Source: Thermoanaerobaculia bacterium (GTDB lineage: Bacteria > Acidobacteriota > Thermoanaerobaculia > Thermoanaerobaculales > Sulfomarinibacteraceae). Taken from it: 42,959 bases of DNA. How positions within the stretch are numbered: the stretch's first letter is position 1; every line of letters begins with the position of its first letter. Location of the stretch: NCBI GenBank assembly GCA_027061805.1, contig JAMOWA010000038.1, positions 1 through 42,959 on the forward strand, in the 5' to 3' direction. Position numbers and translations under genes: made by a program. Of this stretch, positions 6,852 through 29,337 are shown one piece after another. The notes under the pieces are model-generated. The model was not told the origin of the DNA, made no database searches, and worked only from the letters and a program-made list of their open reading frames with translations.

Positions 6852-9389
6852 TCATTCATCCCCGCCAACGGGGATGGAGGCCACGTCGCGACGCCTCAGG
6901 AACAGCGCCATGAACATGCCCAGCAGGGCCAGGAGCGTCCCGAGCCACACCAGTGAGATGAGGGGCTTGGTGGAGACGTCCAGGACCAGGCTCTCCGGTT
7001 TCGGGGGGGCGGGTGCCATGTCGGGGTCGAAGAGCAGGACCTCCACCGATCCACCCTCGGCGTCGATACGGCCCACCTCGAGCGTCATCCCTCCGCTGCC
7101 CGGAATGGTGACGGGACCGGAGACGGTCCCCCCCCTGACGTGCTGGACGATCTTCGTGGTCTCGCCACCCGCCTCCACGGTGAAGGGGATGTCGAAGTCG
7201 ATCTTCCCCGCCTCGGGGTCGAAGCCGGACATGTCGAAGCCGTCAAAGGTGATCTTCACGCCCCTGTAGGCCAGGAACTCTCCGGTGTGGACCCTCACGT
7301 GCCGTGCGATGCCGCCTCCGAGCCCCAGGAGCTCCAGCCGCACGATGCCCGCCGAGGCGTTCATGCCGCCCACCCGGATCTTCCCACCGGAGGTACCCGG
7401 GATGTCCACGGCCACGGCCTGGACCCCCTGGTCCGTGGAGACGATGGAGGGTTCCAGCTCCACGGGCGGCTCACCCGGCCGCTCGAGCTTCACGAGCACA
7501 CCAACGGTGATGGCACCGGGCACCGCGTCCTGGCGCGAGAGGTCGAAGCCCTCGAAGGTGAGCGTCCAGTCCTTGAAGGCCTGGCTCTGGCCCCTGGTCA
7601 GGGTCACGCTGCCGCTCACCGGCGCCTCCTCGGCGGGGTTGAACTCCACGGGGGCCACGTAGAGATCCGTGGTGAGGAAGTTCTTGATGTCCGGGTTGGC
7701 CACCAGCTGGTTGCTCTTGCGGTTCACCCACATCTTGGGCCTGAGCACGAACTGCCTTCCTCGCGGTGTGCTCACCTCCACCACCATGGCGTCCCGCGCG
7801 TCGGGGGTGGGCTTCTCCACCCCCTTGAAGGTCAAGGTGTAGCCCAGCACCTCGGTGGGCTCGTCCCGGGTGAGCCGGATCTTCTCGCTCTTCCCGTAGA
7901 GCCCCGCCGTCAGGAAGGCGAGCAGCATGATGCCCAGCCCGAGGTGGGTCACGTAGGCGCCCGCACCCCGCCACTGGCCCCGCCGGATGCGGACCAGCAC
8001 CTCCCAGCCGTTGGAGAGCATGGCGAAGACCGCCGCCGCCACGTACACCACGTCCACCGGGCGCCGGACCCCGAGGGCGACCGCCACGGCCACCAGGACG
8101 GCCACGGCCGCCAGGATCCCCACAAGACGCTTCCTCGCCGAGGCGATGGTGCCCTTCCAGGCCAGGAAGGGGATCACCCCGATGAAGAAGCCCAGGACGA
8201 TGGCCAGGGGCAGGCCGACCCGGTTGTAGAAGTCCGGCCCCACCTGGGCCGGCTTCTCCATCCACAGGCGGGTGATGAGCGGCGACGAGGTCCCGAGCGT
8301 CACCATGATGCCCAGGGCGGCCAGCAGGATGATCCCGATGACGAAGAACACCGTCCGGGAGAGGAACGGCTCGTCACCCTCCTCACCCGGAATCTCCCGC
8401 CACCGGAGGGCCAGGAGGAACAGAGAAACGAGCGTGAAGAAGGCCATGTTGAACACCAGCCACCCCGTGATGCCCAGGTCCACGAAGGAGTGGACGGAAA
8501 AGTCCGCCAGCACGCCCGACCGGGTCAGGAAGGTGGCGTAGACCACGAACATGTAGCCCGAGATGGCCAGGATGAGGTTCGTCTTGCGGAAGCGCTTGCG
8601 GCCCCTCTGGAGCAGCATTCCGTGGGCCAGTGCCGCCGTGAAGAGCCAGGGCACCAGCGAGGCGTTCTCCACGGGGTCCCACCCCCAGTATCCGCCCCAG
8701 CCCAGCGTCTCGTAGGCCCAGTAGCCACCCAGCATGATGGCGGCACCGAGCGTGATCAGCGAGAGCAGGACCCAGGGCAGCGTCGCCTTCGTCCACTCGT
8801 CGTACTTCCGCATCCACAGGGCCGCCAGGGCGAAGGCGAAGGGGATGGCCGTGGCGGCGTAGCCCAGGAACATCACCGGCGGGTGGATCACCATCCAGGG
8901 GTTCTGGAGCAGGGGGTTGAGCCCCTGCCCGTCCATGGGGATCATGCCGGCGGTCAGCCCCTCGTGGAAGCGGAACGGGTCCTGCCGGACCAGGAGCATG
9001 ATGAGCGACAGCACCGTCAGGTTGTAGAAGATCATCACCCGGGACTCGTAGTACCGCGAGAAGCGGATCAGGAAGAGCCCCAGGATCGAGGAGCAGAGCA
9101 CCCACAGCAGGAAGCTCCCCTCCTGCCCCGCCCAGAAGGTGGAGATCAGGTAGTTGAGCGGGAGCGAGTTGTCCGAGTAGGCCGTCACGTAGAAGAGCCT
9201 GTAGTCGTGGGTGAGCAGCAGGTACATGAGGAGACCCGAGGCCACGATGGTGGCCAGGGTCATGAGCACGTAGGCCTGCCGTGCGGGCTTCCGCCAGGCG
9301 TCGCCCCTCAGGGACAGGGCATAGGCCACGGTGGAGCCCAGGCCGAAGAGAAACGCGATCCACAGCAGCGCGGTTCCCGGCAGGTACAT
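6852..9389 (-). CDS. ccmF: Cytochrome c haem lyase subunit CcmF
   Basis: A protein of 845 aa in the inner membrane with about 15 hydrophobic segments. CcmF receives haem from CcmE and attaches it to the CXXCH motif of apocytochrome c on the periplasmic side. WGGYWGWDPVENAS is the WWD haem-handling signature. IHPPVMFLGY and THLGLGIMLL carry the conserved flanking His residues. At 845 aa it is longer than the usual 620-680 aa: a periplasmic beta-rich region of about 270 aa (from TRDEPTEVLGYTLTFKGVE, with internal duplication) precedes the last membrane helix, as in other long CcmF forms. A GGAGGA lies 5 bases before the ATG. It is the last gene of the operon and follows a 77-base gap with a terminator-like hairpin. 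Confidence 0.95.
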   Translation of the reverse strand: MYLPGTALLWIAFLFGLGSTVAYALSLRGDAWRKPARQAYVLMTLATIVASGLLMYLLLTHDYRLFYVTAYSDNSLPLNYLISTFWAGQEGSFLLWVLCSSILGLFLIRFSRYYESRVMIFYNLTVLSLIMLLVRQDPFRFHEGLTAGMIPMDGQGLNPLLQNPWMVIHPPVMFLGYAATAIPFAFALAALWMRKYDEWTKATLPWVLLSLITLGAAIMLGGYWAYETLGWGGYWGWDPVENASLVPWLFTAALAHGMLLQRGRKRFRKTNLILAISGYMFVVYATFLTRSGVLADFSVHSFVDLGITGWLVFNMAFFTLVSLFLLALRWREIPGEEGDEPFLSRTVFFVIGIILLAALGIMVTLGTSSPLITRLWMEKPAQVGPDFYNRVGLPLAIVLGFFIGVIPFLAWKGTIASARKRLVGILAAVAVLVAVAVALGVRRPVDVVYVAAAVFAMLSNGWEVLVRIRRGQWRGAGAYVTHLGLGIMLLAFLTAGLYGKSEKIRLTRDEPTEVLGYTLTFKGVEKPTPDARDAMVVEVSTPRGRQFVLRPKMWVNRKSNQLVANPDIKNFLTTDLYVAPVEFNPAEEAPVSGSVTLTRGQSQAFKDWTLTFEGFDLSRQDAVPGAITVGVLVKLERPGEPPVELEPSIVSTDQGVQAVAVDIPGTSGGKIRVGGMNASAGIVRLELLGLGGGIARHVRVHTGEFLAYRGVKITFDGFDMSGFDPEAGKIDFDIPFTVEAGGETTKIVQHVRGGTVSGPVTIPGSGGMTLEVGRIDAEGGSVEVLLFDPDMAPAPPKPESLVLDVSTKPLISLVWLGTLLALLGMFMALFLRRRDVASIPVGGDE

Positions 9390-9435
9390 CAGTTCCTCCG
9401 AATCATTCCCGGTCGCAAGACGACCGGTTGGAAAA

Positions 9436-9456
9436 CGCCGGGGCCCGGCCCCGGCG
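9436..9456 (-). terminator. Attenuator-like hairpin between ccmE and ccmF
   Basis: A 9-bp perfect stem (cgccggggc / gccccggcg) with a 3-base loop. On the minus strand it is followed directly by TTTTCC. It has the form of a weak intrinsic terminator and would lower ccmF transcription relative to ccmABCDE. Confidence 0.6.
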
Positions 9457-9466
9457 GAATGTGGCG

Positions 9467-9877
9467 TCAGGCCTCAGAGCCGTCCTCCGAGCCCTCGATG
9501 CCCTGGTACTTGGACGGGCACTTCACCAGGAGCTGCTCCGCGTGGAACACCCCGTCCCTGGAGCTCCCGATGGCCACGATCTGGGTGGCCTCCTCGAAGT
9601 TGCCCGGCTTGGTTCCCGAGTAGACCACGGGGAGCCGGACACCGTTCTCGTCCACCATGGTGAAGGCCAGCTCCTGGGAGTCCTCCAGCCAGCGCGTGGA
9701 ACCCTCCACGAGGCTCCCGGCCACCTGGACCTTGTGGCCCGTGGCCATGGCCTGGTCGAACGAGACGTAGGCGGTCAGGTTCGACTTGAACGAGCTGGCG
9801 CCGTAGATCAGGAACGCCACGATGAGGACCCCCCCCACCGCGTACCACAGGCGGCGTTGCATCCTGTTGCCGCTCAT
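9467..9877 (-). CDS. ccmE: Haem chaperone CcmE, Cys-type (CXXXY)
   Basis: A protein of 136 aa with an N-terminal membrane anchor (residues 9-28) and a periplasmic OB-fold. CcmE holds haem covalently and passes it to CcmF. In the classical protein the haem-binding residue is the His of HXXXY. Here the motif is C120-P-S-K-Y124, so Cys replaces His. This is the variant known from archaea and some bacteria with a modified System I that lacks CcmH, and no ccmH or ccmG is present in this operon. VAGSLVEGS, FTMVDENG and VVYSGTKPGNFEEA are the usual fold motifs. Its ATG overlaps the ccmD stop codon (ATGA), so the two are translationally coupled. Confidence 0.95.
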   Translation of the reverse strand: MSGNRMQRRLWYAVGGVLIVAFLIYGASSFKSNLTAYVSFDQAMATGHKVQVAGSLVEGSTRWLEDSQELAFTMVDENGVRLPVVYSGTKPGNFEEATQIVAIGSSRDGVFHAEQLLVKCPSKYQGIEGSEDGSEA

Positions 9878-9987
9878 GACCCCCCCCTCTCCAGCCGGCG
9901 GACCTTCCGGTCCAGCCGGAACACGTACAGAAACAGTCCCGCCCAGATGATGAGCGTGACCAGCATGATGCCACCGAGATCGCTCAT
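9874..9987 (-). CDS. ccmD: Small membrane protein CcmD
   Basis: A protein of 37 aa: MSDLGGIMLVTLIIWAGLFL is one transmembrane helix, and a short basic tail (RLDRKVRRLERGG) follows. Size, topology and position between ccmC and ccmE fit CcmD, which helps release holo-CcmE from the CcmABC complex. Its start overlaps the ccmC stop (ATGA) and its stop overlaps the ccmE start in the same way. It has little sequence signature, so the call rests largely on context. Confidence 0.88.
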   Translation of the reverse strand: MSDLGGIMLVTLIIWAGLFLYVFRLDRKVRRLERGGS

Positions 9988-10667
9988 AGGAGCTCCTCCT
10001 GTTGCCGGCGCCGCCGGATCCTCTCCAGCCGCACCTCGATAGAGTACAACCACCCCGCGAACACGGAAAATCCCGCCAGGGAGGCCATGAAGACCTGGAA
10101 CATGCGCGAGTCCATCTTGATCTTGCCCTGGGTGTTGATGAAGGTGTCCGGATGGAGCGACCAGTAGATCCTGGGCACCACGAACACCAGGAACGGCACC
10201 GTCACGAAGGCCAGGACCGAGTACACGGCGGCCATGGTGGCCCGCCGCTCGGGATCCGGGATCGCCGCCCGGAGTGCGAAGTAGGCCGCGTAGATGAGCA
10301 GCAGGAAGGTGATGGAGGTCTCGCGGGGGTCCCAGTTCCAGTAGGAGCCCCACATGATCTTCGCGAAGATGGATCCGGTGACCGTGGCCAGCACGGCGAA
10401 GGTCAATCCCAGGGAGTTGGCCGCCTCGGCCCGGATGTCGTCCTCCATGTTCCGCCTGCGAAGGTAACGGATCGAGGCGATGCACGACCCCAGGAAGGCC
10501 ACCGTGGCCACCCAGGCCATGGGCACGTGGAAGAACACGATCCGGCTCGACTGTCCCTTGAAGTTGGCCGCGGCCGGGGCCCACAGGAAGGCCGCCCAGA
10601 TCACCAGGGCCAGCCAGGCGAACAGCAGCCAGGGCCAGACGGCCCGGAACCCGCCCTCCCTACTCAT
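9984..10667 (-). CDS. ccmC: Haem transporter/handling protein CcmC
   Basis: A protein of 227 aa with six membrane helices. CcmC places haem on CcmE at the outer face of the inner membrane. WGSYWNWDPRETS is the WWD motif, FFHVPMAW carries the first conserved His, and YWSLHPDTFIN the second. The ATG at 10667 overlaps the last 8 bases of ccmB. An earlier TTG in the same frame at 10691 is less likely because it would lie deep inside ccmB. The tail is strongly basic (RIRRRRQQEELL), on the cytosolic side. Confidence 0.95.
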   Translation of the reverse strand: MSREGGFRAVWPWLLFAWLALVIWAAFLWAPAAANFKGQSSRIVFFHVPMAWVATVAFLGSCIASIRYLRRRNMEDDIRAEAANSLGLTFAVLATVTGSIFAKIMWGSYWNWDPRETSITFLLLIYAAYFALRAAIPDPERRATMAAVYSVLAFVTVPFLVFVVPRIYWSLHPDTFINTQGKIKMDSRMFQVFMASLAGFSVFAGWLYSIEVRLERIRRRRQQEELL

Positions 10668-11340
10668 GCCACACCGCCGGAAACAGCACAACGGACAGGA
10701 TCGTCATGATTCCTCCAAGCGAGATCACCGCCCTCAGGGCTTCCATCACCCCCTCGGGCGACCCCTCCGCTGCGGCCCGTGTTCCCTGGATCACGAAGAT
10801 GAGGAGCGGGAGCAGCAGGGGCAGGGAGAGCACCGAGAAGAGCGCCCCCCGCGTCATGGCCCTGGCGATGATGGCGGCCACCATGGTGGTGGTCACCGCA
10901 AGAGTATACCCTCCCGCCGCCAGGATCCCCGCGAACCCCCACAGAGAGACCGGCCGGAAACCCATCAGCATGCCGTACAGTGGCACGAGGATCGCCATCA
11001 GGACAGCCAGGAGCGCAAGGTTGAAGGCCAGCTTGCCCGCCCAGACCACCAGGGGCGAGGCCGAGAGGCGCAGCAGGGGTGCCGTCTGGGTGTCCTCCTC
11101 CTTCACGAAGGAGCGGTCCAGCCCGGCCATGGACGCGAAGAAGATCACGATCCACAGGAGCGCCGACAGGAGGAAGGGCCGGTCGGCCTCGGCGATGCGG
11201 TACGGACCGATGGTGTACGAGACCGCCGCCAGCGTGGTCACCGCGAAGAGGCCCAGCGCGTTCAACGCCACGCGAGTCCGGAACTCGGTCCGGAGGTCCT
11301 TGACGAACACGGCGCCCGCCTCAGCCAGGAAGCGCCACAT
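10660..11340 (-). CDS. ccmB: Haem exporter-type ABC permease CcmB
   Basis: A protein of 226 aa with six membrane helices and the typical opening FVKDLRTEFRTR. FASMAGLDRSFVKEEDTQTA and LLRLSASPLVVWAGKL match the conserved cytosolic loop of CcmB (RSFxxExED). With CcmA it forms the ABC complex that uses ATP to release holo-CcmE from CcmC. Its start lies inside the end of ccmA (20-base overlap), which indicates coupled translation. Confidence 0.95.
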   Translation of the reverse strand: MWRFLAEAGAVFVKDLRTEFRTRVALNALGLFAVTTLAAVSYTIGPYRIAEADRPFLLSALLWIVIFFASMAGLDRSFVKEEDTQTAPLLRLSASPLVVWAGKLAFNLALLAVLMAILVPLYGMLMGFRPVSLWGFAGILAAGGYTLAVTTTMVAAIIARAMTRGALFSVLSLPLLLPLLIFVIQGTRAAAEGSPEGVMEALRAVISLGGIMTILSVVLFPAVWHE

Positions 11341-11953
11341 GCTCCGTCCCCCACTCCATCTCGCGCCGGTCGTTGGTGGCCAGGATCACCGTGGTGCCTC
11401 CCTCCCTCTGCCGCTCCACGAGCCCCTCCAGCCAGTCCTGGCCCGCGGGATCCAGGTTGGAGCCCGGCTCGTCCAGGAAGAGCACCTCCGGCTCGTGGAG
11501 CACGGCCTGGGCGATCTTGAGGCGCTGGTGCATCCCCGTGGAGAAGCCCGCCACCGGTGTCGTCCTGTCGGGATCGAGGCCCACCTCCCGGAGCAGAGCC
11601 CGGCACCGCTCCTCGTCGAAGCCCAGGCCCCGCACCGTGGAGAAGAAGCGCAGGTTTTCCATGGCGTCCAGCTCCCCGTAGAGCCCCATGGCGGGGGCCA
11701 CGATGCCCAGGTGCTCGCGCCAGGCGTGCCGCGGCACCTCCCCGCCGCCGGCCCTCAGGTACCGTATGGTGCCACGGGTGGGCCGCACCAGGCCGCACAG
11801 GATTGTCATGAGGGTGGACTTGCCCGAGCCGTTGGGTCCGGTGATCACCAGCACCGAGCCGGGCTCCGCGCGTCCCGACACCCCGCGGAAGACGACCCTC
11901 AGGTCGAACCGCTTGGCCAGCTCCTCGAACTCGACTCGGACCCCCCCAACCAT
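11321..11953 (-). CDS. ccmA: ABC transporter ATP-binding protein CcmA
   Basis: A protein of 210 aa. Walker A is GPNGSGKST, the signature is FSTGMHQRLKIA, and Walker B is VLFLDEPGSNLD. The H-loop reads ILATNDRREME, with Asn where most ABC ATPases have His. It supplies ATP hydrolysis to the CcmAB complex. The ATG at 11953 is chosen because the protein then begins with the usual strand (VEFEELAKRF). TATCTT lies 7 bases before it with no Shine-Dalgarno, which suggests a leaderless transcript. It is the first gene of ccmABCDEF and is divergent from the sensor kinase gene. Confidence 0.94.
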   Translation of the reverse strand: MVGGVRVEFEELAKRFDLRVVFRGVSGRAEPGSVLVITGPNGSGKSTLMTILCGLVRPTRGTIRYLRAGGGEVPRHAWREHLGIVAPAMGLYGELDAMENLRFFSTVRGLGFDEERCRALLREVGLDPDRTTPVAGFSTGMHQRLKIAQAVLHEPEVLFLDEPGSNLDPAGQDWLEGLVERQREGGTTVILATNDRREMEWGTEHVALPG

Positions 11954-11960
11954 GGCCGGG

Positions 11961-11966
11961 AAGATA
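11961..11966 (-). promoter_or_regulatory. Probable -10 box of the ccm operon
   Basis: TATCTT on the minus strand, 7 bases before the ccmA ATG. No clear -35 element. Its spacing resembles the -10 boxes found directly before four other starts in this window. Confidence 0.45.
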
Positions 11967-12097
11967 GCACAGTGGCACACATGTGACGCCGGGGGGTCGT
12001 GGTCAGGACGTGAGGGGGTAAGGACGTTCCTCGCCATCCCGGAGAGGGACCCATGACCGTGACCCTGTCGGTGTCCGGGGGCCTCTGGCGGCACGGC

Positions 12098-12103
12098 TAT
12101 ACT
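12098..12103 (+). promoter_or_regulatory. -10 box of the sensor kinase operon, leaderless
   Basis: TATACT followed by 6 bases (cgatcc) and then the ATG at 12110. A start of transcription 7 bases after the hexamer would be the A of the ATG. No Shine-Dalgarno is present. Confidence 0.6.
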
Positions 12104-12109
12104 CGATCC

Positions 12110-13447
12110 ATGCGCCGCCAGGGCCCGCTCACCATGCGCCACCTCACCGTCGCCGTGCTGGCCGTGGTGCTGGTCAACGCCCAGCTCACCTGGTGGATCA
12201 TCTACACCCTCAGGGAGAACCGGACGCGGCTCGAGCTCGAACGCGCCACCCTCACCGCCACCGCGCGGCTGGCGGCCGCCCGGGTCGCCCTCGGAATGGA
12301 GCACGCCCGGGACGTGCTGGAGAGCGCCGTCCTCGCCGGGAAGGCGCCCCCGGAGCCCCCCCCGCCACCGTTCCAGGTGCTGGTGGTGCGGGACGGGCTC
12401 TCCTGCCGGGCGGGCTGGGTGGACAACAGCGGGTTCCTGGAGCTCAGGATCCCGGTTCCCGGGGGGTGCCTGGTGGCCTCACCCTCGCCGGAGTGGCTCG
12501 ACACCCTGCTGGCCCCCCCCGAGCGTTTCGAGCTGGTCGCTGCAGGGTCCGGGGAGATCCCCGGGGCCACCCTGCCGGCCCCACTCTTCCACTGGGTCTT
12601 CCGTCCCCGGCCCAGCGTCTGGGAAGGCATCCTCTCGAAGTACCGGCGCCGGATCGTGATGGTGGTCGGCGAGGGTTCCTTCTTCGCGGTGCTGCTCCTG
12701 GGCATGATGTGGCTCCTGTGGCAGACCCTCCGGCGGGAGGTGGAGCTCGAACGGCAGCACCAGAACTTCCTCTCGGCCATCACCCACGAGCTCAAGTCCC
12801 CCCTGGCCTCCATGAAGCTCGCCCTGGAGACGGTGCTGCGGGGCCGTGCCGGACGCGACACCAGCATGCGCTTCCTGGCCAACGCCCTTCAGGACACAGA
12901 GCGCCTGGAGTCCCTGGTCCAGAAGGTGCTGGAGGTCACCCGGTACGCCCCGGGCCACCGGTCCCTGGAGCTGCGATGGTCCGACCTCGGAGCCCTGGTG
13001 CAGGCCTCGGTGGACACCTTCTCGCGGCGCGCCACCGCGGTGGGTGCCTCCGTCACCACGGATATCGAGCCGGGTGTGGGGGCCATGGTGGACGAGGAGG
13101 CCTTCCCCATCGTCGTCTCGAACCTGCTGGAGAACGCGGTCAAGTACGGCGGCACGCCGCCGTCCGTGGAGGTGACCCTGAGGCTTGAGGGCCACCACGC
13201 CGTCCTCACGGTGCGCGACAATGGACGGGGGATTCCCGAGGAGGACATGCCGCTGGTCTTCGACAGGTTCTTCCGCAGTGGGGACGAGATGACGCGGACC
13301 ACCCAGGGCACGGGGCTCGGTCTCTACCTGGTGCAGCAGATCGTGTCGGCACACCGGGGTACGGTCCGGGTCCGGGAGACCGGGCCGGAGGGCACCACCT
13401 TCGAGGTGGTGCTGCCCGAGGCCCGGCGCACGGAGGAACCCGGATGA
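12110..13447 (+). CDS. Membrane sensor histidine kinase
   Basis: A protein of 445 aa. TM1 spans about residues 9-31 and TM2 about 182-205; between them lies a periplasmic domain of about 150 aa with no recognised fold. HisKA carries the phosphate acceptor His226 (ITHELKSPLASMKLALE). The HATPase_c boxes are N (NLLENAVKYG), G1 (VRDNGRGIP), F (VFDRFFR) and G2 (GTGLGLYLVQQI), all intact. It should sense an envelope signal and phosphorylate the regulator encoded next, whose ATG overlaps its stop (ATGA). The start at 12110 sits 6 bases after a TATACT box; 12134 (ATG) is an alternative. A cytochrome c operon diverges from it, but functional coupling is not shown. Confidence 0.92.
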   Translation: MRRQGPLTMRHLTVAVLAVVLVNAQLTWWIIYTLRENRTRLELERATLTATARLAAARVALGMEHARDVLESAVLAGKAPPEPPPPPFQVLVVRDGLSCRAGWVDNSGFLELRIPVPGGCLVASPSPEWLDTLLAPPERFELVAAGSGEIPGATLPAPLFHWVFRPRPSVWEGILSKYRRRIVMVVGEGSFFAVLLLGMMWLLWQTLRREVELERQHQNFLSAITHELKSPLASMKLALETVLRGRAGRDTSMRFLANALQDTERLESLVQKVLEVTRYAPGHRSLELRWSDLGALVQASVDTFSRRATAVGASVTTDIEPGVGAMVDEEAFPIVVSNLLENAVKYGGTPPSVEVTLRLEGHHAVLTVRDNGRGIPEEDMPLVFDRFFRSGDEMTRTTQGTGLGLYLVQQIVSAHRGTVRVRETGPEGTTFEVVLPEARRTEEPG

Positions 13448-14151
13448 AGCGGCACATCCTGATCGTGGAGGACGAGGCGCACCTGGCCGAGGCCCTGGCC
13501 CACAACCTCCAGTTCGAGGGGTATGCCACCACGGTGGCCCACGACGGCGAGGAGGGCCTGAAGCTTGCCAACACCATGCAGTTCGACCTGATCCTCCTGG
13601 ACATCATGATGCCCCGCATGGACGGCCTCGAGGTGTGCCGCCGCCTCAGGGCGGCCGGAAGCCGGGTCCCCATCCTCTTCCTCACGGCCAGGGCGTCCGA
13701 GGCCGACCGGATCCTGGGCCTGAAGGTAGGGGCCGACGACTACATCCCGAAGCCCTTCGTCCTGGAGGAGCTCATCCTCAGGATCCAGGGAATCTTCCGG
13801 CGGCAGGAGTGGTACTCGAGCCCCGTCACCGAGGGCGACGTCTTCCGGTTCGGCGACAGCGAGATCAACTTCTCCACCTTCGAGGCCCGGAACCGCGAGG
13901 GCACGGTCCGGCTCACCGAGAAGGAGTGCATGCTCATGAAGCTCCTGGTGGAGCGGCAGAACCAGGTGGTCTCGCGGGAGGAGATCCTCCAGCGCGTGTG
14001 GGGCTACAGCTTCTCGGCCTCCTCCCGCACCATCGACAACTTCATCGTCCGGCTGCGGCGCTACTTCGAGCCCGAGCCGCGCCGGCCCCGCCACATCCAC
14101 TCCGTGAGGGGCGTGGGCTACCGGTTCACGCCGGAGCCCGAGGGACCATGA
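13444..14151 (+). CDS. OmpR/PhoB-family response regulator
   Basis: A protein of 235 aa. The receiver domain (1-120) has the acidic pair E9-D10, phosphoacceptor D53 (LILLDIMMPRMDG), the LTA Thr and the KPF Lys. The C-terminal winged helix (about 135-232) has LTEKECMLMKLLVERQ and the recognition region RVWGYSFSASSRTIDNFI, ending with HSVRGVGYRF. It is a DNA-binding transcription regulator partnered with the kinase just upstream. Coupled by ATGA overlaps to both neighbours, so its targets may include this operon, which contains a polysaccharide ligase-like gene. Confidence 0.95.
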   Translation: MKRHILIVEDEAHLAEALAHNLQFEGYATTVAHDGEEGLKLANTMQFDLILLDIMMPRMDGLEVCRRLRAAGSRVPILFLTARASEADRILGLKVGADDYIPKPFVLEELILRIQGIFRRQEWYSSPVTEGDVFRFGDSEINFSTFEARNREGTVRLTEKECMLMKLLVERQNQVVSREEILQRVWGYSFSASSRTIDNFIVRLRRYFEPEPRRPRHIHSVRGVGYRFTPEPEGP

Positions 14152-19895: not shown

Positions 19896-19924
19896 TTGCA
19901 TCTCGTATACACATTGTATACAAT
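19896..19924 (+). promoter_or_regulatory. GntR promoter with overlapping palindromic operator
   Basis: TTGCAT at 19896-19901, a 17-bp spacer and TACAAT at 19919-19924. The perfect 12-bp palindrome ATTGTATACAAT (19913-19924) covers the -10 box, and a further half site GTATAC is at 19905-19910. TTGTATACAA-type palindromes are typical of FCD-type GntR operators, so autoregulation is likely. The GTG at 19931 is 6 bases after the -10 box, so the mRNA should be leaderless. Confidence 0.8.
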
Positions 19925-19930
19925 CCTGCC

Positions 19931-20638
19931 GTGGCCCGGATCCGCCCCGTACCCGCCGCCTCGAGGCAGACCGTCACGGAGTCCGTCTACCAGGCGCTCC
20001 GGCGCGACATCATCACGCTCCGGCACCGTCCGGGAGCCTCGCTCACGGAGGCAGAGCTCGCCGCGGCCTACGGCTCGAGCCGGGTCCCGGTCCGGGAGGC
20101 CTGCCGGCGCCTCCAGCAGGAGGGCCTGCTCACCGCCATCCCCTACAAGGGGTACTTCGTCAGCCAGATCTCGTCCAGGGAGATCGCCGACTGCTTCGAC
20201 CTGCGCGAGGTGCTCGAGACCGGCGCCGTCCGTCGCGCCGTGGAGCTGGTCACCCCCGGCGAGATCCGGGATCTCGAGAAACTGGCGCAGGTGGAGTACA
20301 CCTACCACGACTGGGACTCCTACGCGGAGTTCCTCGAACACAACCGCGAGTTCCACGTGTGCCTGGCCGCTCTGGGGGGCAACGACCGTCTCGTGGGTGT
20401 CCTGGACGACCTGCTGGGCACCATGCAGCGGTTCTTCTTCCTGGGGCTCGACCTGGGTGACTTCGGCACCCAGATGCGGCACGAGCACGAATGTCTCGTG
20501 AACGCCCTGCGTTCGCGTTCCGCCGACGAGGCCGTGACCTGCATCAGGGAGCAGATCGCCGCCTCCCGCCGGAGGATCCAGCGGGCCCTGGTCCGCGATG
20601 GGATCCCCCTCCCCCTGGAACTGGACGCACCCCACTAA
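19931..20638 (+). CDS. GntR-family transcription regulator, FCD type
   Basis: A protein of 235 aa. The N-terminal winged helix (about 10-75) has VTESVYQALRRDIITLRHRP and the recognition helix GSSRVPVREACRRLQQEGLL. The C-terminal all-helical FCD domain (about 85-220) has DLREVLETGAVRRAVEL, LEHNREFH and HECLVNALRSRSADEAV, with the His/Asp residues that usually bind a metal and a small carboxylate. The GTG at 19931 is chosen because the -10 box ends 6 bases before it; an ATG at 19886 lies before the promoter. The aminotransferase-like gene begins 31 bases downstream on the same strand and is the obvious candidate target. The ligand is unknown. Confidence 0.92.
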   Translation: MARIRPVPAASRQTVTESVYQALRRDIITLRHRPGASLTEAELAAAYGSSRVPVREACRRLQQEGLLTAIPYKGYFVSQISSREIADCFDLREVLETGAVRRAVELVTPGEIRDLEKLAQVEYTYHDWDSYAEFLEHNREFHVCLAALGGNDRLVGVLDDLLGTMQRFFFLGLDLGDFGTQMRHEHECLVNALRSRSADEAVTCIREQIAASRRRIQRALVRDGIPLPLELDAPH

Positions 20639-20669: not shown

Positions 20670-21845
20670 ATGCCCGATTTCATCTACCTGGACAACGCCG
20701 CCACCACCTTCCCCAAGCCTGCCGAGGTCATCGACGCCATGTCGGAGTTCTGCCGCAGGCGCGGGGTCAATCCCGGCCGCACGGGCTTCGACCTGGCCCT
20801 GGAGGCCGAGGAGACGGTGGCCGCCACACGGACCGCACTCACGAGCCTCTTCGGGGGCACCGATCCCAACCGGCTGGTGTTCACCCACAACGTCACCGAC
20901 GCCCTGAACCTGCTCATCAACAGTGTCCTCGAGCCCGGTGACCACGTGATCTCCACCTGCCTGGAGCACAACTCCGTGCTCCGTCCCCTCCACTACCACG
21001 CGGAACGGGGCGTGTCGGTGGACTTCGTCCCCTTCGACGGGAACGGCCACGTGGACCCGGGAGACATCGGGGCGAGGATCCGGCCCGACACGAAGCTCGT
21101 CATCATGAACCACGGATCGAACGTCCTTGGAACCCTCCAGCCCGTGGCCGACGTGGGCGCCATCTGTCGCCGCCACGGTGTGATGTTCGCCGTGGACGCG
21201 GCCCAGACCGCCGGGGTCGTGGACATCGACATCGGCGCCATGAACATCGACGTGCTCTGCTTCACCGGGCACAAGTCGCTCTACGGCCCGACCGGTACCG
21301 GCGGGATGTACGTGGCCGAGCACGTGGAGATCCACCCCTGCCGGTCGGGCGGCACCGGCGTGAAGAGCGCCCTGAGAACGCAGCCTCGCGAGTACCCCTG
21401 GCGGATGGAGTTCGGCACGTTGAACACCGTGGGCATCGCGGGCCTCCTGGCGGGCCAGCGGTGGATCATCTCCCACGGGGGTGTGGGAGCCATCCTCGCC
21501 GAGGAGATGGAGCTCGCACGCCGGCTTCGCGACGGCCTGGCAACCACGGAGGGCGTGACCCTGTACTGCGCCGACATGGACCGCCCCCACCTTCCGGTGC
21601 TGGCGTTCAACGTGGACGGCCTCGTGGCGGAGCAGGTGGGCCAGCTCCTCGACGTGGATCACGAGGTGATCACCAGGACAGGCCTCCACTGTGCTCCTCT
21701 CGTCCACGAGGGAATCGGCACCGCGGAGAGAGGAGGAAGCGTCCGCTTCTCGGTGGGTGCGTTCAACTCGGATGCCGACGTGGACCGCGCCCTCGGCGCC
21801 GTGGCAGAGATCGCCGCCTACGCCCTGGAGGGCACCGCGACCTGA
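20670..21845 (+). CDS. Class V aminotransferase, cysteine desulfurase type
   Basis: A protein of 391 aa, a cytosolic PLP enzyme. YLDNAATTFPKP is the family opening. K202 (FTGHKSLYGPTG) should form the PLP aldimine; DAAQTAGVVDIDI holds the cofactor Asp. RTGLHCAPLVH with C341, then GSVRFSVGAFN, is the active-site loop of the EF2568-like subgroup of cysteine desulfurases, which takes sulfur from cysteine as an enzyme persulfide. The ATG at 20670 has GAGGTG 5-10 bases upstream. No isc, suf or selenium gene is close. The only partner is the GntR/FCD regulator 31 bases upstream, so the physiological substrate could differ from cysteine. ORF and family are certain, substrate less so. Confidence 0.9.
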   Translation: MPDFIYLDNAATTFPKPAEVIDAMSEFCRRRGVNPGRTGFDLALEAEETVAATRTALTSLFGGTDPNRLVFTHNVTDALNLLINSVLEPGDHVISTCLEHNSVLRPLHYHAERGVSVDFVPFDGNGHVDPGDIGARIRPDTKLVIMNHGSNVLGTLQPVADVGAICRRHGVMFAVDAAQTAGVVDIDIGAMNIDVLCFTGHKSLYGPTGTGGMYVAEHVEIHPCRSGGTGVKSALRTQPREYPWRMEFGTLNTVGIAGLLAGQRWIISHGGVGAILAEEMELARRLRDGLATTEGVTLYCADMDRPHLPVLAFNVDGLVAEQVGQLLDVDHEVITRTGLHCAPLVHEGIGTAERGGSVRFSVGAFNSDADVDRALGAVAEIAAYALEGTAT

Positions 21846-22008: not shown

Positions 22009-24768
22009 GTGGCGGAACCCCTTCGAAGGCTGGAGGAGAAGTACGAGATCCTCGGCAAGCTCAGCGAGGGGGGCATGGGGTCCATCTACAAGGTCCGTCA
22101 CCTCCTCCTGGACGAGGTGCGGGTCATCAAGGTCATGCACTCCCAGCTGGGGCAGAAGGAGGGGTTCGAGGAGCGGTTCCGCCGCGAGGCCAAGATGGCC
22201 ATCCGGCTCCGTCACGACAACATCGCCCAGTTCTATGACTTCTCCGTCGATCAGGAAGGGAACGCCTACATCGTGATGGAGTACATCGACGGTGTGAACC
22301 TCCTGGACCTGCTCAGGCGACACGGGATCCTGCCCCTGGGGTTCACGCTGGAGGTGGCCCGTCAGGCGCTGAAGGCGCTCGGGTACCTCCACGGCAAGGG
22401 CATCGTCCACCGCGATGTCTCCCCCGACAACCTCATGCTCACCCGCGACGACGACGGCAACCCGCTGGTCAAGCTCATCGACCTCGGTGTCGCCAAGGCG
22501 CTCGAGGGCGGCGGGGAGCTGACCACGACGGGTATCTTCGTGGGCAAGCTGAAGTACTGCTCCCCGGAACAGCTCCGGCAGTATGAGGGCGCGGAGATCA
22601 GCGCACGGTCCGATCTCTACTCGCTCTCGGTGGTCCTGTACGAGCTCCTCACCGGACGCCTCCCCATTCGCGGGGAAAATCTCACCTCCATCATGGCGGG
22701 TCACCTCTTCGAGCCCCCTGTCCCGTTCACGGAGAGCGATCCCGACGGGTGCATTCCCGAGGACCTCCGCCGCGTGGTGCTCCGGTCGCTGGCCAAGGAT
22801 CCCGAGGCGCGGCACGAGTCCGCCCGGCACATGTCCCGGGAGCTGGCCAGCGTCCAGGCCCGGTTTCCCTTCGTGGCCGAGGACTTCGTGCGTCTCCTGA
22901 TTCCGGAGGAGACACATCACGCTGGCAGAGGTTCCGGCCGGAGAGTCTCCGGACACGGATCCGCCATCGGCGACCGGCATGGCCTCTCGAAGGGGGCCGC
23001 CCCGGACCGGCCGGCCGAGGAGGCCGGCCGGAAACAGGGTTCCCGGGCAACTCCGGAACCGGTCCGCGCCGCAGCCGAATCCAACCAGAGGCGGTGCGAG
23101 GCCCTGTACGCCGAGGCCAGGAGGCTGGCGGCCGAGGGACACCTTCCGCAGGCGGCCTCCCAGGCCCGCGTCCTCCTCCAGCTGGATCCCGGGAGCAGAA
23201 GGGCCACGGAGCTTCTCGAGCAGCTCGAGCGGGAGATGGCCAGGCGGAACCGAGAGCGGGAGCACGCCGCCTCCCTGAGCTCCGTCGTGGACCTGATCTC
23301 CAACCAGCTGGAGGCCGGGGACCTCAACGCCGCCATGGAGAGCCTCCGCGAGGCGCGGGACCGTTTCGACGGAGAGCAGCGCCTCGACGGGCTCGAGGAG
23401 AGGATCCACTCTGCCGAGAACGCCACACGGAAGCAGCAGGCCCAGAATCTGCTGGCCGAGGCCCGCGTCATGGCCGAGGTCTACCAGTTCGACGAGGCCG
23501 TGGCCGTCCTCGCCGGGGCCATCGAGCTCGACCCCCGGGACACGGCCCTCCGCCGGGAGCTGGAGAATCTCGAGCGGCTGCGGACCGAGCACAGGGAACG
23601 GGCCGCCCACGAGGCCGCCGTGGCCCGGGCCGCCGGCGAGGTGGAGTCGCTCCTGGACCGGTCGCTCTTCGACGAGGCCCGGGCGGCCCTGGATCGCGCC
23701 GAGGAGGCGCTGGGCGCTGCCGATGTCTTCACCGCACTGAGGGGCAGGGCGGACGCCCTGGAGCAGCACCAGAGGGAGCAGAAGGTGGCCGGTCTCCTGG
23801 CCCGCGCCCGCGAGGCCGTGGACCAGGGCCGGTTCGTCACGGGGGTCCGGGCCCTGGAGGAGGCCCTCGAGCTCTGTCCGGACGACCTCCTGGTCCAGCA
23901 GGTGCTTGCGGAGACCCGCGAAAGGGCGGAACGTCATGCGGAGGAGGCCCGCCGCAGGGCCGCGCTCCAGTCCCTGGAGGGCGAGGTGCTCGACCTCATC
24001 CGGGACGAGCGGTGGGGGGATGCCGCCGCACGCCTCGGCGAGGCTCGCGACGAGCTCGGCGAGGCACCGGAGCTGGCCTCGCTCGAGCAGCGGCTGGAGG
24101 AGGCCAGGAGTCTGGCCCTCCGCCTCGGAAAGGCCCGTGGCCTGCTGGACCGGGCCGAGGCCGCCCTGGAGGCGGACGACCTCGCCCTGGCCCTGGACGC
24201 CCTCGGCAGCGCCCGGGAGCTGGAGATCATGGATTCGCCCCTCGGCGACCGCCTGCGGGAGCTGGACGGGAGGCTCCGGCAGGCCGTCGCGGAACAACAG
24301 CGTCAGCGGGAGCTCGCCGCCGCCGTGGAGCGCGTGGAGTCCTGCCTCGACTCGGGGGACCTGGAGGGGGCAGACCGGGCCCTCGAGGTGGCGGAGAAGC
24401 TCTTCCCCGGCGAGACGGCCCTCCGGTCACTCCGGCAGCGGGTGGAGACGATGGCGTCGGCTCCCGGGCCGGGGCCGGCCGCGGAGATCCTGTCGGAGGT
24501 GCGATCCGCCATGGACGGCGGGCACTGGGAACAGGCGCTGGGGCTCCTCAATCAGGCTCGCTCGCTGGAGCCCGGGAACCCCGAGGTGCCCCTCCTCCTG
24601 CGGGAGGCCCGCATCTCCCAGGCCATCGCCACCATCGAGTCCAGTCTCCAGCAGGGTGACGTCGAATCCGCCGCGAGGGCCGTGGAGCTCGCCCGCCGCC
24701 TCGTGGGGGACGATCCCCGCCTCGACGAGATCTCCCGGCGGATCGACGAGGCCGGCGGCTCAGACTGA
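22009..24768 (+). CDS. Ser/Thr protein kinase with long helical-repeat tail
   Basis: A protein of 919 aa. The kinase domain (about 12-280) has the glycine loop LSEGGMGSIYKV, K41 (VRVIKVM), the helix-C Glu in RFRREAKMAIRL, HRDVSPDN with D136, and DLG in place of DFG with D158. It looks active. A low-complexity linker follows (about 300-355), then about 560 aa of alpha-helical repeats. The units recur as ARxLAAEGHLPQA, LEAGDLNAAMESLREA and ALEADDLALALDALGSA, which resemble TPR or coiled-coil repeats. There is no transmembrane segment, unlike PknB, so it should act in the cytosol, with the tail binding partners. The GTG at 22009 is chosen for the GGAG 9 bases upstream; GTG 21988 is possible. The last 9 bases overlap the end of the convergent methyltransferase gene. 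Confidence 0.9.
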   Translation: MAEPLRRLEEKYEILGKLSEGGMGSIYKVRHLLLDEVRVIKVMHSQLGQKEGFEERFRREAKMAIRLRHDNIAQFYDFSVDQEGNAYIVMEYIDGVNLLDLLRRHGILPLGFTLEVARQALKALGYLHGKGIVHRDVSPDNLMLTRDDDGNPLVKLIDLGVAKALEGGGELTTTGIFVGKLKYCSPEQLRQYEGAEISARSDLYSLSVVLYELLTGRLPIRGENLTSIMAGHLFEPPVPFTESDPDGCIPEDLRRVVLRSLAKDPEARHESARHMSRELASVQARFPFVAEDFVRLLIPEETHHAGRGSGRRVSGHGSAIGDRHGLSKGAAPDRPAEEAGRKQGSRATPEPVRAAAESNQRRCEALYAEARRLAAEGHLPQAASQARVLLQLDPGSRRATELLEQLEREMARRNREREHAASLSSVVDLISNQLEAGDLNAAMESLREARDRFDGEQRLDGLEERIHSAENATRKQQAQNLLAEARVMAEVYQFDEAVAVLAGAIELDPRDTALRRELENLERLRTEHRERAAHEAAVARAAGEVESLLDRSLFDEARAALDRAEEALGAADVFTALRGRADALEQHQREQKVAGLLARAREAVDQGRFVTGVRALEEALELCPDDLLVQQVLAETRERAERHAEEARRRAALQSLEGEVLDLIRDERWGDAAARLGEARDELGEAPELASLEQRLEEARSLALRLGKARGLLDRAEAALEADDLALALDALGSARELEIMDSPLGDRLRELDGRLRQAVAEQQRQRELAAAVERVESCLDSGDLEGADRALEVAEKLFPGETALRSLRQRVETMASAPGPGPAAEILSEVRSAMDGGHWEQALGLLNQARSLEPGNPEVPLLLREARISQAIATIESSLQQGDVESAARAVELARRLVGDDPRLDEISRRIDEAGGSD

Positions 24769-25872
24769 GGTCCCGGCCCCGAGGAGCCGGGCCGCCACAC
24801 CCGCGACCCTCCCCTTCCCCTGGACCAGCATCCTCAGATCCGTGCCCATGCCGTCGGGATCCAGGAGCCTCTTGATCTCCTGGCGCGCGGAATAGGACGC
24901 GGCATCCACCTCCCGTTCGAGGCCCAGGCCGGCCTCGTCCACCAGGGAAGCGAGCCCGCCACGGACCATCAGCTCCGCCAGGGGCCACAATCCCAGGTCC
25001 TCCCAGCCACCCTCGCGCCCGGCCCTGCACAGGTCGTCGAAGTTCACGTGGGCCGTGATGTCCCGTTCGCCCGGATCCTTCAGGGGGTCCCGGTCCAGGC
25101 CGTGCCGGTGGAAGGTGGCCAGGGAACCGCCACGCCGCCCCCGGGGGTTGTAGAGGCGGGCCGCCGGGTACCCGTAGTCCAGCACCATCACCAGTCCGCC
25201 GGAGGCGGCCCACCCGAGCAGCCCGGCGTGCAGCGGCCCGGTCTCCAGGCCGATCTCGGCCACCTGCCCGGGGGCCAGCTCCACGCCATGACCACGGAGG
25301 TAGGCGGCAAGCTCCTCCCGGGCGGGCCGCTCCTCCCAGCCGAGGCCCTCACCGGTGGCCACCACCCAGTACTCCCGGAGCCCCTCCGGCCGCAGGACAA
25401 CCCTGTGCACGGGCAGCGCATCGTAGAGCTCCGAGGCGTGGAGCAGCGCCGGACCGGCGGGCGGGGAGGCCTCGTCCAGGCGGGCCACCACCTCCACCTC
25501 CGGCCCGAGGCGCCGGCGCTGCAGCTCGCGGAGCGCCGGCGAGCGCTCCACCGAGATCACCCGGACCACCACCCCACCCCCCCCGCCCCCTCCGATCGCC
25601 CCCAGCAGACCCTCGAGGAAGCTCCCGTCACCCGAGGCCACGTCCACCACCGTGAGCCCGCCGATCCCCCGGCCCAGCTCGACCGCGACACGGGCGACCA
25701 CGCGCGCGTACCAGGTCGAGGCCGTGGGTGCGGTCAGGTAGTCCCCCTGCCGGCCGTGGCGGGGCCGGGGGGAGCTGTAGTACCCGTGCTCCGGGTGGTA
25801 GAGCGCCAGCTCCATGAAGTCCCGGAAGGACACGGCCCCGCCCCGGCTCCGGATCTCGTCGACGATCCACAT
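24760..25872 (-). CDS. MidA-like (DUF185) SAM-dependent methyltransferase
   Basis: A protein of 370 aa. FRDFMELALYHPEHGYYS is the family opening. VVDVASGDGSFLEGLL is the SAM-binding glycine motif, ISVERSPALRELQRRRL follows it, and ASELYDALPVHR matches the NE(L/F)xDALPVxR signature. VMVLDYGYPAARLYNPRGR and ITAHVNFDDL are also typical. Family members include NDUFAF7/MidA, an arginine methyltransferase needed for complex I assembly; the bacterial role is not settled. TATACT ends 6 bases before the ATG and no Shine-Dalgarno is present, so translation is probably leaderless. A run of eight Gly residues (near 107) is a local low-complexity feature. Confidence 0.9.
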   Translation of the reverse strand: MWIVDEIRSRGGAVSFRDFMELALYHPEHGYYSSPRPRHGRQGDYLTAPTASTWYARVVARVAVELGRGIGGLTVVDVASGDGSFLEGLLGAIGGGGGGGVVVRVISVERSPALRELQRRRLGPEVEVVARLDEASPPAGPALLHASELYDALPVHRVVLRPEGLREYWVVATGEGLGWEERPAREELAAYLRGHGVELAPGQVAEIGLETGPLHAGLLGWAASGGLVMVLDYGYPAARLYNPRGRRGGSLATFHRHGLDRDPLKDPGERDITAHVNFDDLCRAGREGGWEDLGLWPLAELMVRGGLASLVDEAGLGLEREVDAASYSARQEIKRLLDPDGMGTDLRMLVQGKGRVAGVAARLLGAGTSV

Positions 25873-25878
25873 CGGAGG

Positions 25879-25884
25879 AGTATA
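25879..25884 (-). promoter_or_regulatory. -10 box of the methyltransferase gene, leaderless
   Basis: TATACT on the minus strand, then cctccg, then the ATG at 25872. No -35 match at the expected distance. The 6-base spacing is the same as before the sensor kinase, GntR and CLC genes. Confidence 0.6.
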
Positions 25885-27270: not shown

Positions 27271-29325
27271 CTACCCCTCCGCCTCCAGGCGCCGGATGTG
27301 CTCCTCCGCTCCCAGCACCAGGAGGTGGTCCCCCTCCTGCACGGTGTAGGTGGCGTCGGGCACCCGGTCCACGATGCACTCCTCGCCGTTGTCGCAGTGT
27401 TTCACCAGCAGGACCGTCAGCCCGAACCGGCGCCTGAGGTCCAGCTCGCCCAGGGTCTTTCCCACGAAGCTGGGGGGAGCGGGGACCTCGGCCAGGTTCA
27501 TCCCCTCGACCCCGGGAAGCGTCTGGATCCGCCGGTGGTCGGTCACGGTGAGCGCCATGGTGGAGGCCATCTCCCGCTTCAGCACCTCCGCGTTGTAGCG
27601 CTCGATCACGTCCTCGGGCCAGAGGGAGCCCACGATCACGCCGCGATCGTCCACCACCGGGCAGCTGTGGTGGTGGGTGGCGAAGCGGCGCATGGCGGCG
27701 TCCAGGGAGTCTCCCGGCCGGAACACCGGAAAGCCCGTCTCCAGCATCATGTCCCGGGCGACGATCAGGCCCCCCAGCTCGGCCAGCTCCGCCATGATGG
27801 GCCGCACCTCGTCGATGGTGATCACCCCCAGCAGCCTCCGGTCTCCATCCACCACGAAGACGGCATCTCCGGGCTGCTCCATGAAGCGCGACACCACCCG
27901 CATCACCTGCTCCCCCGGATCGATGGTCAGGAAGGTGTCCCGCATGACGTCCTCGACCTTCACGGAACGCAGGACGTTCACCGTCTGGCCTCCCCGGATG
28001 TCGATCCCCCGCCGGAGCAGCTTGAGCGTGTAGATGGAGGCCTTCTGGAGCTGTGTCGCCAGCAGGGTGGCCACGATGCAGGTGACCATGAGGGGCAGGA
28101 TGATGGTGTACTCGTTGGTGAGCTCGAAGATGATCAGGATGGCCGTGATGGGCGCGTGGGTGGCGGCGCCCACCACGGCGCCCATGCCCACCAGGGCGTA
28201 GGCTCCCGGGCCGCCGGTGGCCCCGGGCCACGCGGCATGGACCACGGTCCCCACGCCGCCGCCCAGCATGGCCCCGATGAACAGCGACGGGGCGAAGATC
28301 CCTCCGGACCCCCCGGAACCGATGGTGATGGAGACGGCCAGGATCTTCACCAGCACCAGCACCAGGAGCACGCGGAGGAGCAGCCCCCCCTGGAGCGCCT
28401 CGTTGATGGCCTCGTACCCCACGCCCAGAACCTCGGGGAACCTGAGGGCCACGAGCCCCACCAGCGCTCCGCCCAGGGCCGGCTTCAGGGGCCCGGGGAT
28501 CCGGAGGCCGTCGAACAGGTCCTCGGCCCCGTAGAGCACCCTCGTGAAGAGGAGCGCGACCAGGCCCGCCAGGAGGCCCAGGACGGTGTAGGCCAGCAGC
28601 TCGAACGGGCTCTGGAGCGAGTAGGCGGGCACCTCGAAGGCCGGGAAGTCCCCCAGGAAGTGCCGGCTCACCACCGTGGCGGCCACGGAGGAGATCACGA
28701 TGGGCGAGAACTGGGTGACCCCGAAGTCACCGAGGATGATCTCCACGGAGAACAGGGCCCCCGCCACCGGGGCGTTGAAGGTTCCGGCGATACCCGCCGC
28801 CGCGCCGCACCCCACCAGGGTCCGCAGGCGCCGCTCCCCCACCCCCAGCCACTGTCCCACGGTGGAGCCGATGGCCGAGCCGATCTGCACGATGGGCCCC
28901 TCGCGACCCACCGAGCCGCCCGAGGCGATGCTGATCCCCGAGGCGAACATCTTGGCCAGCACCACCCGGGGGCGGATCCGCCCCCCGCGAAGGGCCACCG
29001 ACTCCATCACCTCGGGGACACCGTGCCCCCTGGCCTCGGCCGCGAAGAAGTGGATCACCAGGCCCACCAGCAGCCCACCCACCGCGGGTGCCGTGACCTT
29101 CCACCAGGGCGGGAGGCCGTGGATGTAGTCCAGCGAGTACTCGCCCATCCTCCAGAACACCAGCTGCCCCAGGCGGATGAGCTCGCGGAACGCCACCGCC
29201 CCGAGGCCGCCCAGCAGGCCGATGCCCACCGAGATCAGCACCATGTACATCTGCTCGGACTGCCGCAGGCGCGCGTTCAGCTCGTGGAGGGCCGAGCGGA
29301 GGCGGCGGAGCGGCGGGGTGGTCAT
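27271..29325 (-). CDS. CLC-family chloride channel/transporter with CBS and TrkA-C domains
   Basis: A protein of 684 aa in the inner membrane. The CLC core (about 25-430) has the gating motif GREGP with E142 and the anion-site motif GSGGSGGIFAPSLF. The first pore motif, normally GSGIP, reads G-H101-G-V-P-E-V, with His at the position of the anion-coordinating Ser. Two CBS domains (about 455-570; VEDVMRDTFLTIDPGEQVMR, LIVARDMMLETGFPVFRPG) bind nucleotides in related proteins. A TrkA-C-like domain closes the chain (TLGELDLRRRFGLTVLLV, VQEGDHLLVLG). The gating Glu suggests an H+-coupled antiporter or a gated channel; selectivity is open. TACAAT ends 6 bases before the ATG with no Shine-Dalgarno. 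Confidence 0.93.
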   Translation of the reverse strand: MTTPPLRRLRSALHELNARLRQSEQMYMVLISVGIGLLGGLGAVAFRELIRLGQLVFWRMGEYSLDYIHGLPPWWKVTAPAVGGLLVGLVIHFFAAEARGHGVPEVMESVALRGGRIRPRVVLAKMFASGISIASGGSVGREGPIVQIGSAIGSTVGQWLGVGERRLRTLVGCGAAAGIAGTFNAPVAGALFSVEIILGDFGVTQFSPIVISSVAATVVSRHFLGDFPAFEVPAYSLQSPFELLAYTVLGLLAGLVALLFTRVLYGAEDLFDGLRIPGPLKPALGGALVGLVALRFPEVLGVGYEAINEALQGGLLLRVLLVLVLVKILAVSITIGSGGSGGIFAPSLFIGAMLGGGVGTVVHAAWPGATGGPGAYALVGMGAVVGAATHAPITAILIIFELTNEYTIILPLMVTCIVATLLATQLQKASIYTLKLLRRGIDIRGGQTVNVLRSVKVEDVMRDTFLTIDPGEQVMRVVSRFMEQPGDAVFVVDGDRRLLGVITIDEVRPIMAELAELGGLIVARDMMLETGFPVFRPGDSLDAAMRRFATHHHSCPVVDDRGVIVGSLWPEDVIERYNAEVLKREMASTMALTVTDHRRIQTLPGVEGMNLAEVPAPPSFVGKTLGELDLRRRFGLTVLLVKHCDNGEECIVDRVPDATYTVQEGDHLLVLGAEEHIRRLEAEG

Positions 29326-29331
29326 GGCCGC

Positions 29332-29337
29332 ATTGTA
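29332..29337 (-). promoter_or_regulatory. -10 box of the CLC gene, leaderless
   Basis: TACAAT on the minus strand, then gcggcc, then the ATG at 29325. No -35 match. Same geometry as the GntR gene (TACAAT, 6 bases, start). Confidence 0.6.

Follow-up and report, generated by a model that had tools for sequence, protein, structure and literature searches.

Transcription appears to begin on the first base of the start codon at about one gene in ten of a Thermoanaerobaculales acidobacterium

Leaderless genes are known from several bacterial groups. Their mark in a genome is the TA-led gene, which takes the form of TAnnnT upstream of the start in high-GC groups (Zheng et al. 2011, PMC3160421). In that work, all three of the Acidobacteria counted had leaderless genes, at 9.7–19.4% of their genes. 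Leaderless starts have been mapped in mycobacteria, where it is both necessary and sufficient that the transcript begins with ATG or GTG (PMC3898074, PMC4633059). In our literature search we found no study that combines Acidobacteriota with transcription start sites and dRNA-seq, nor any account of leaderless genes in Thermoanaerobaculum or Thermoanaerobaculales.

Here we analyzed a 42,959-nt stretch of DNA (the window), which is contig 38 of a 3.10-Mb assembly (68 contigs, 96.9% complete). Judged by the sensor kinase described below, the nearest named relatives are assemblies of Acidobacteriota that carry the label Thermoanaerobaculales; Candidatus Sulfomarinibacter is among them, as is, further off, Thermoanaerobaculum. 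The original prediction named five starts in the window that lack a Shine-Dalgarno (SD) sequence and have a TANNNT hexamer ending 6–7 nt upstream of the start codon; all five were confirmed. On the forward strand, the -10 element TATACT (12098–12103) is separated by 6 nt from ATG 12110 of a sensor histidine kinase with HisKA and HATPase_c domains (12110–13447), and TACAAT (19919–19924) is separated by 6 nt from GTG 19931, the predicted leaderless start of a GntR/FCD regulator (19931–20638). On the reverse strand, TATCTT (11961–11966), with an upstream TG as in an extended -10, lies 7 nt from ATG 11953 of the ABC ATPase gene ccmA (11321–11953). The other two hexamers on this strand also have 6-nt spacers: TATACT (25879–25884) to ATG 25872 of a SAM-dependent methyltransferase (Methyltransf_28; 24760–25872), and TACAAT (29332–29337) to ATG 29325 of a CLC channel/antiporter with CBS and TrkA-C domains (27271–29325), both starts being predicted as leaderless. 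Domain assignments are from Pfam. The further claim of a good GGAGG at most other genes is a little strong as worded, with an SD match of at least 5 nt at 11 of the other 24 genes, 4 nt at 7, and none at 6.

A hexamer that fixes three bases only, in five examples picked by eye near starts from about 29 genes, could reflect chance matches. However, the probability of finding TANNNT at -12 or -13 in 5 of 29 window genes is about 5e-6 given the background measured, 0.44% per position; assuming 1.2% for AT-rich upstream regions raises it to about 6e-4. The genome-wide test used 763 kb of stretches from the same genome (L003–L022, L173–L192, and the window; approximately 25% of the genome), with a G+C content of 69.6%, in which a simple codon-usage caller gave 546 genes. 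The TANNNT peak that had been predicted genome-wide is present in this quarter of the genome; it is sharp, falls at exactly -12, and occurs only before in-frame ATG/GTG. At that position TANNNT precedes 45 of 2132 candidate in-frame ATG/GTG starts, whereas positions -40 to -21 average 7.8 each. No TANNNT peak was seen in the 763-kb sample upstream of ATC/GTC, CTG, or GCG codons, or of out-of-frame ATG/GTG. With the 546 starts called from coding potential only, using neither SD nor -10, TANNNT was found 30 times at -12 and 6 times at -13 against a mean of about 2.4 elsewhere; since the peak persists for these starts, the start model is not its source. With both SD and -10 terms included, a start model assigned 55 of the 546 genes (10%) as TA-led, compared to 4–13 at decoy offsets, and 277 genes of the sample have an SD match of at least 5 nt. 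Over the whole genome, TAYAMT-N6-ATG occurs 46 times and the same pattern with an N9 spacer 13 times. Together with the conservation among orthologs described below, the position-specific peak, its codon and frame controls, and the decoys refute chance matching, to which we assign a negligible probability. By this count, transcription appears to begin on the first base of the start codon at about one gene in ten of this uncultured acidobacterium, and the 10% agrees with the 9.7–19.4% of PMC3160421.

The logo of the TA-led genes indicates a hexamer of the type T-A-(C/T)-N-(A/C)-T with a G at -2 of the hexamer, and contains no information at -35 in the own-genome sample. Possible sigma-70-type features are the G at -2 overall, the TGn of ccmA, and a TTG approximately 17 bp upstream in gntR. 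TA-led genes mostly head transcription units: a same-strand neighbor lies 50 nt or less upstream of 6 of 51 TA-led genes vs 172 of 343 SD-led genes (P 1e-7), although AT-richer intergenic DNA may explain part of this. The base after the start codon also differs among the 546 starts, with G in 53% of TA-led and A in 50% of SD-led genes. A C at -1 is favored at start sites in mycobacteria; as additional evidence here it was set aside, since SD genes have it nearly as often (73% vs 63%).

Orthologs were taken from up to 60 related genomes, and because of shared ancestry the counts given here are not of independent events. The kinase set, drawn from two families at 40–65% protein identity, comprises 28 sequences in which the start is covered, and that of the window is one of them. 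All 28 have TANNNT upstream of an in-frame ATG/GTG, at -12 in 24 and at -13 in 4. The hexamer is TATACT in 23 of the 28, mostly preceded by GC, and besides the hexamer and this GC almost no upstream column is conserved. The kinase could instead be translated from an in-frame ATG at 12053–12055 (forward strand), 19 codons upstream of 12110, which would make TATACT coding sequence. This ATG follows the purine-rich, SD-like run GGAGAGG, and the frame is open from 12053. However, it is peculiar to its own genome, in several orthologs the ATG/GTG linked to TATACT has no start codon in frame ahead of it, and the proteins are similar from residue 1 onward as counted from 12110, so that translation from 12053 is very improbable. 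The kinase start, which is kept in two families and predicted to be leaderless, is likely 12110 rather than 12053. This is a likely point of misannotation, where automatic annotation may wrongly pick the SD-preceded ATG. The next gene, a response regulator (13444–14151, forward strand), overlaps the kinase stop and is SD-led.

The other four genes follow the same pattern. The hexamer falls within -12 to -15 in 28 of 29 methyltransferase orthologs, where its middle bases vary as TANNNT permits, in 29 of 30 ccmA orthologs, usually as TGnTAnnnT, in 12 of 12 GntR orthologs, and in 5 of 5 CLC family members. For three of the five genes the arrangement of hexamer and start is seen across two families. 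Apart from a 4–5-nt match in a few, there is no SD at the TA-led ortholog starts. In some CLC, ccmA, and methyltransferase orthologs and in two GntR orthologs the hexamer is at -14/-15, and where spacers reach 8–9 nt, leaders of approximately 1–3 nt are likely. Such offsets would also suit real promoters with leadered transcripts, of several nucleotides or more, translated by an SD-independent route. A leadered gene would need no fixed distance between the -10 element and the start, and so the kinase offsets, all at -12 or -13, and a genome-wide peak essentially one base wide count against this explanation, which we consider improbable. We instead favor the leaderless interpretation, with two coexisting modes of initiation, as first proposed; it withstood every sequence-based test applied, the -12 peak and the orthologs support it, and its accurate wording would be "leaderless or nearly so". 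Selection for transcripts that begin at the start codon would lead one to expect this nearly fixed distance from -10 to start amid upstream turnover. That leaderlessness itself is selected at particular genes of this order, with the kinase hexamer in 28 of 28 as the basis, is possible but doubtful.

The gntR start is embedded in a putative operator, GTATACACATTGTATACAAT (19905–19924, forward strand), whose tandem GTATAC repeats overlap the spacer and the -10 element and are kept in 12 of 12 orthologs. No second copy of the tandem repeat was found in the genome, even at one mismatch. The overlap raises the question of whether the conserved hexamers are sites for a regulator, or translation enhancers, rather than -10 boxes. 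However, the middle of the hexamer varies exactly as TANNNT, the hexamer marks operon heads, and TACAAT in the GntR orthologs is preceded at approximately 17 bp by TTG, as in a sigma-70 promoter; we regard a role other than the -10 as very improbable. With the -10 box inside the only tandem GTATAC operator of the genome, autoregulation is likely, and GntR likely represses its own predicted leaderless promoter; a class-V aminotransferase gene lies downstream. The position of this gene (20670–21845), following gntR, suggests a self-contained autoregulated operon. The arrangement may resemble the autoregulated GntR promoter of the FadR/FCD type, in which the promoter of a GntR-FCD gene is covered by a palindromic GTATAC operator. 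Here, in contrast, the promoter is predicted to be leaderless and the operator is present as a single copy in the genome. Because the promoter would be leaderless, the operator, -10 element, and start codon fit in approximately 30 bp.

The putatively leaderless ccmA is at the head of a ccm cluster (6852–11953) that contains ccmA, ccmB, a ccmC-type gene, ccmE, and ccmF by Pfam. This cluster is divergent from the two-component system formed by the kinase and response regulator.

We also screened whole genomes by pattern counts, comparing TAYAMT-N6-ATG to the N9 spacer; this screen is coarse, covering ATG only and one hexamer class. N6/N9 counts are 124/34 for the organism's own family (three genomes) and 233/42 for a second family, f31 (13 genomes). 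There is no excess in family f29 (221/252, nine genomes) or family f38 (108/140, four genomes). Among named genomes, the sum for five Thermoanaerobaculales-type assemblies (L104, L106, L097, L101, and L108) is 138/52; the counts are 47/53 in three Vicinamibacteria (L136, L138, and L149) and 33/35 in Acanthopleuribacter (L172). The predicted leaderless signal is patchy within the phylum.

Very probably, then, TANNNT promoters place the transcript start at or near the start codon and yield leaderless mRNAs, with SD sequences serving most other genes. The promoter would be of the housekeeping type: its -10 is TANNNT, in most cases with a G at -2 of the hexamer, and its -35 would be weak or absent. 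From it, RNA polymerase would start at, or within approximately 3 bases of, the A/G of the start codon. The leaderless mRNA would presumably be initiated by ribosomes that recognize the 5'-terminal AUG/GUG without SD pairing, and most other genes, above all those inside operons, would use an SD. The patterns described here are firm evidence, at the level of sequence, that leaderless and SD initiation are mixed in Thermoanaerobaculales. If leaderlessness itself is selected at particular genes, the leaderless route would give some regulators and assembly genes a second channel of initiation, patchily gained or lost within the phylum. Gene families that appear leaderless across the order, set against acidobacterial families without the signal, offer a natural comparison for why genes stay leaderless.

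Leaderless genes with TAnnnT were already known from bacteria, three Acidobacteria genomes among them, and we therefore consider this a well-supported case of an already known kind. In M. tuberculosis and M. smegmatis, TANNNT promoters place the transcript start on an ATG or a GTG (PMC3898074, PMC4633059), and the organism appears to do likewise, accepting GTG besides ATG; the mycobacterial work draws on mapping of transcription start sites, ribosome profiling, and reporters, whereas ours draws on sequence alone and finds a lower share of genes. There is also a match to the TA-led genes of Actinobacteria and Deinococcus-Thermus (PMC3160421), which likewise have TAnnnT approximately 10 bp before the start, no SD, and high GC, and coexist with SD genes. 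Compared to the TA-led genes of that work, those described here belong to a MAG of the Thermoanaerobaculales, their hexamers are conserved order-wide at named genes, and the signal is absent in some other acidobacterial families. What is added here, at the level of predicted promoters, is that the arrangement stays constant at named genes throughout the order, in contrast to those other families.
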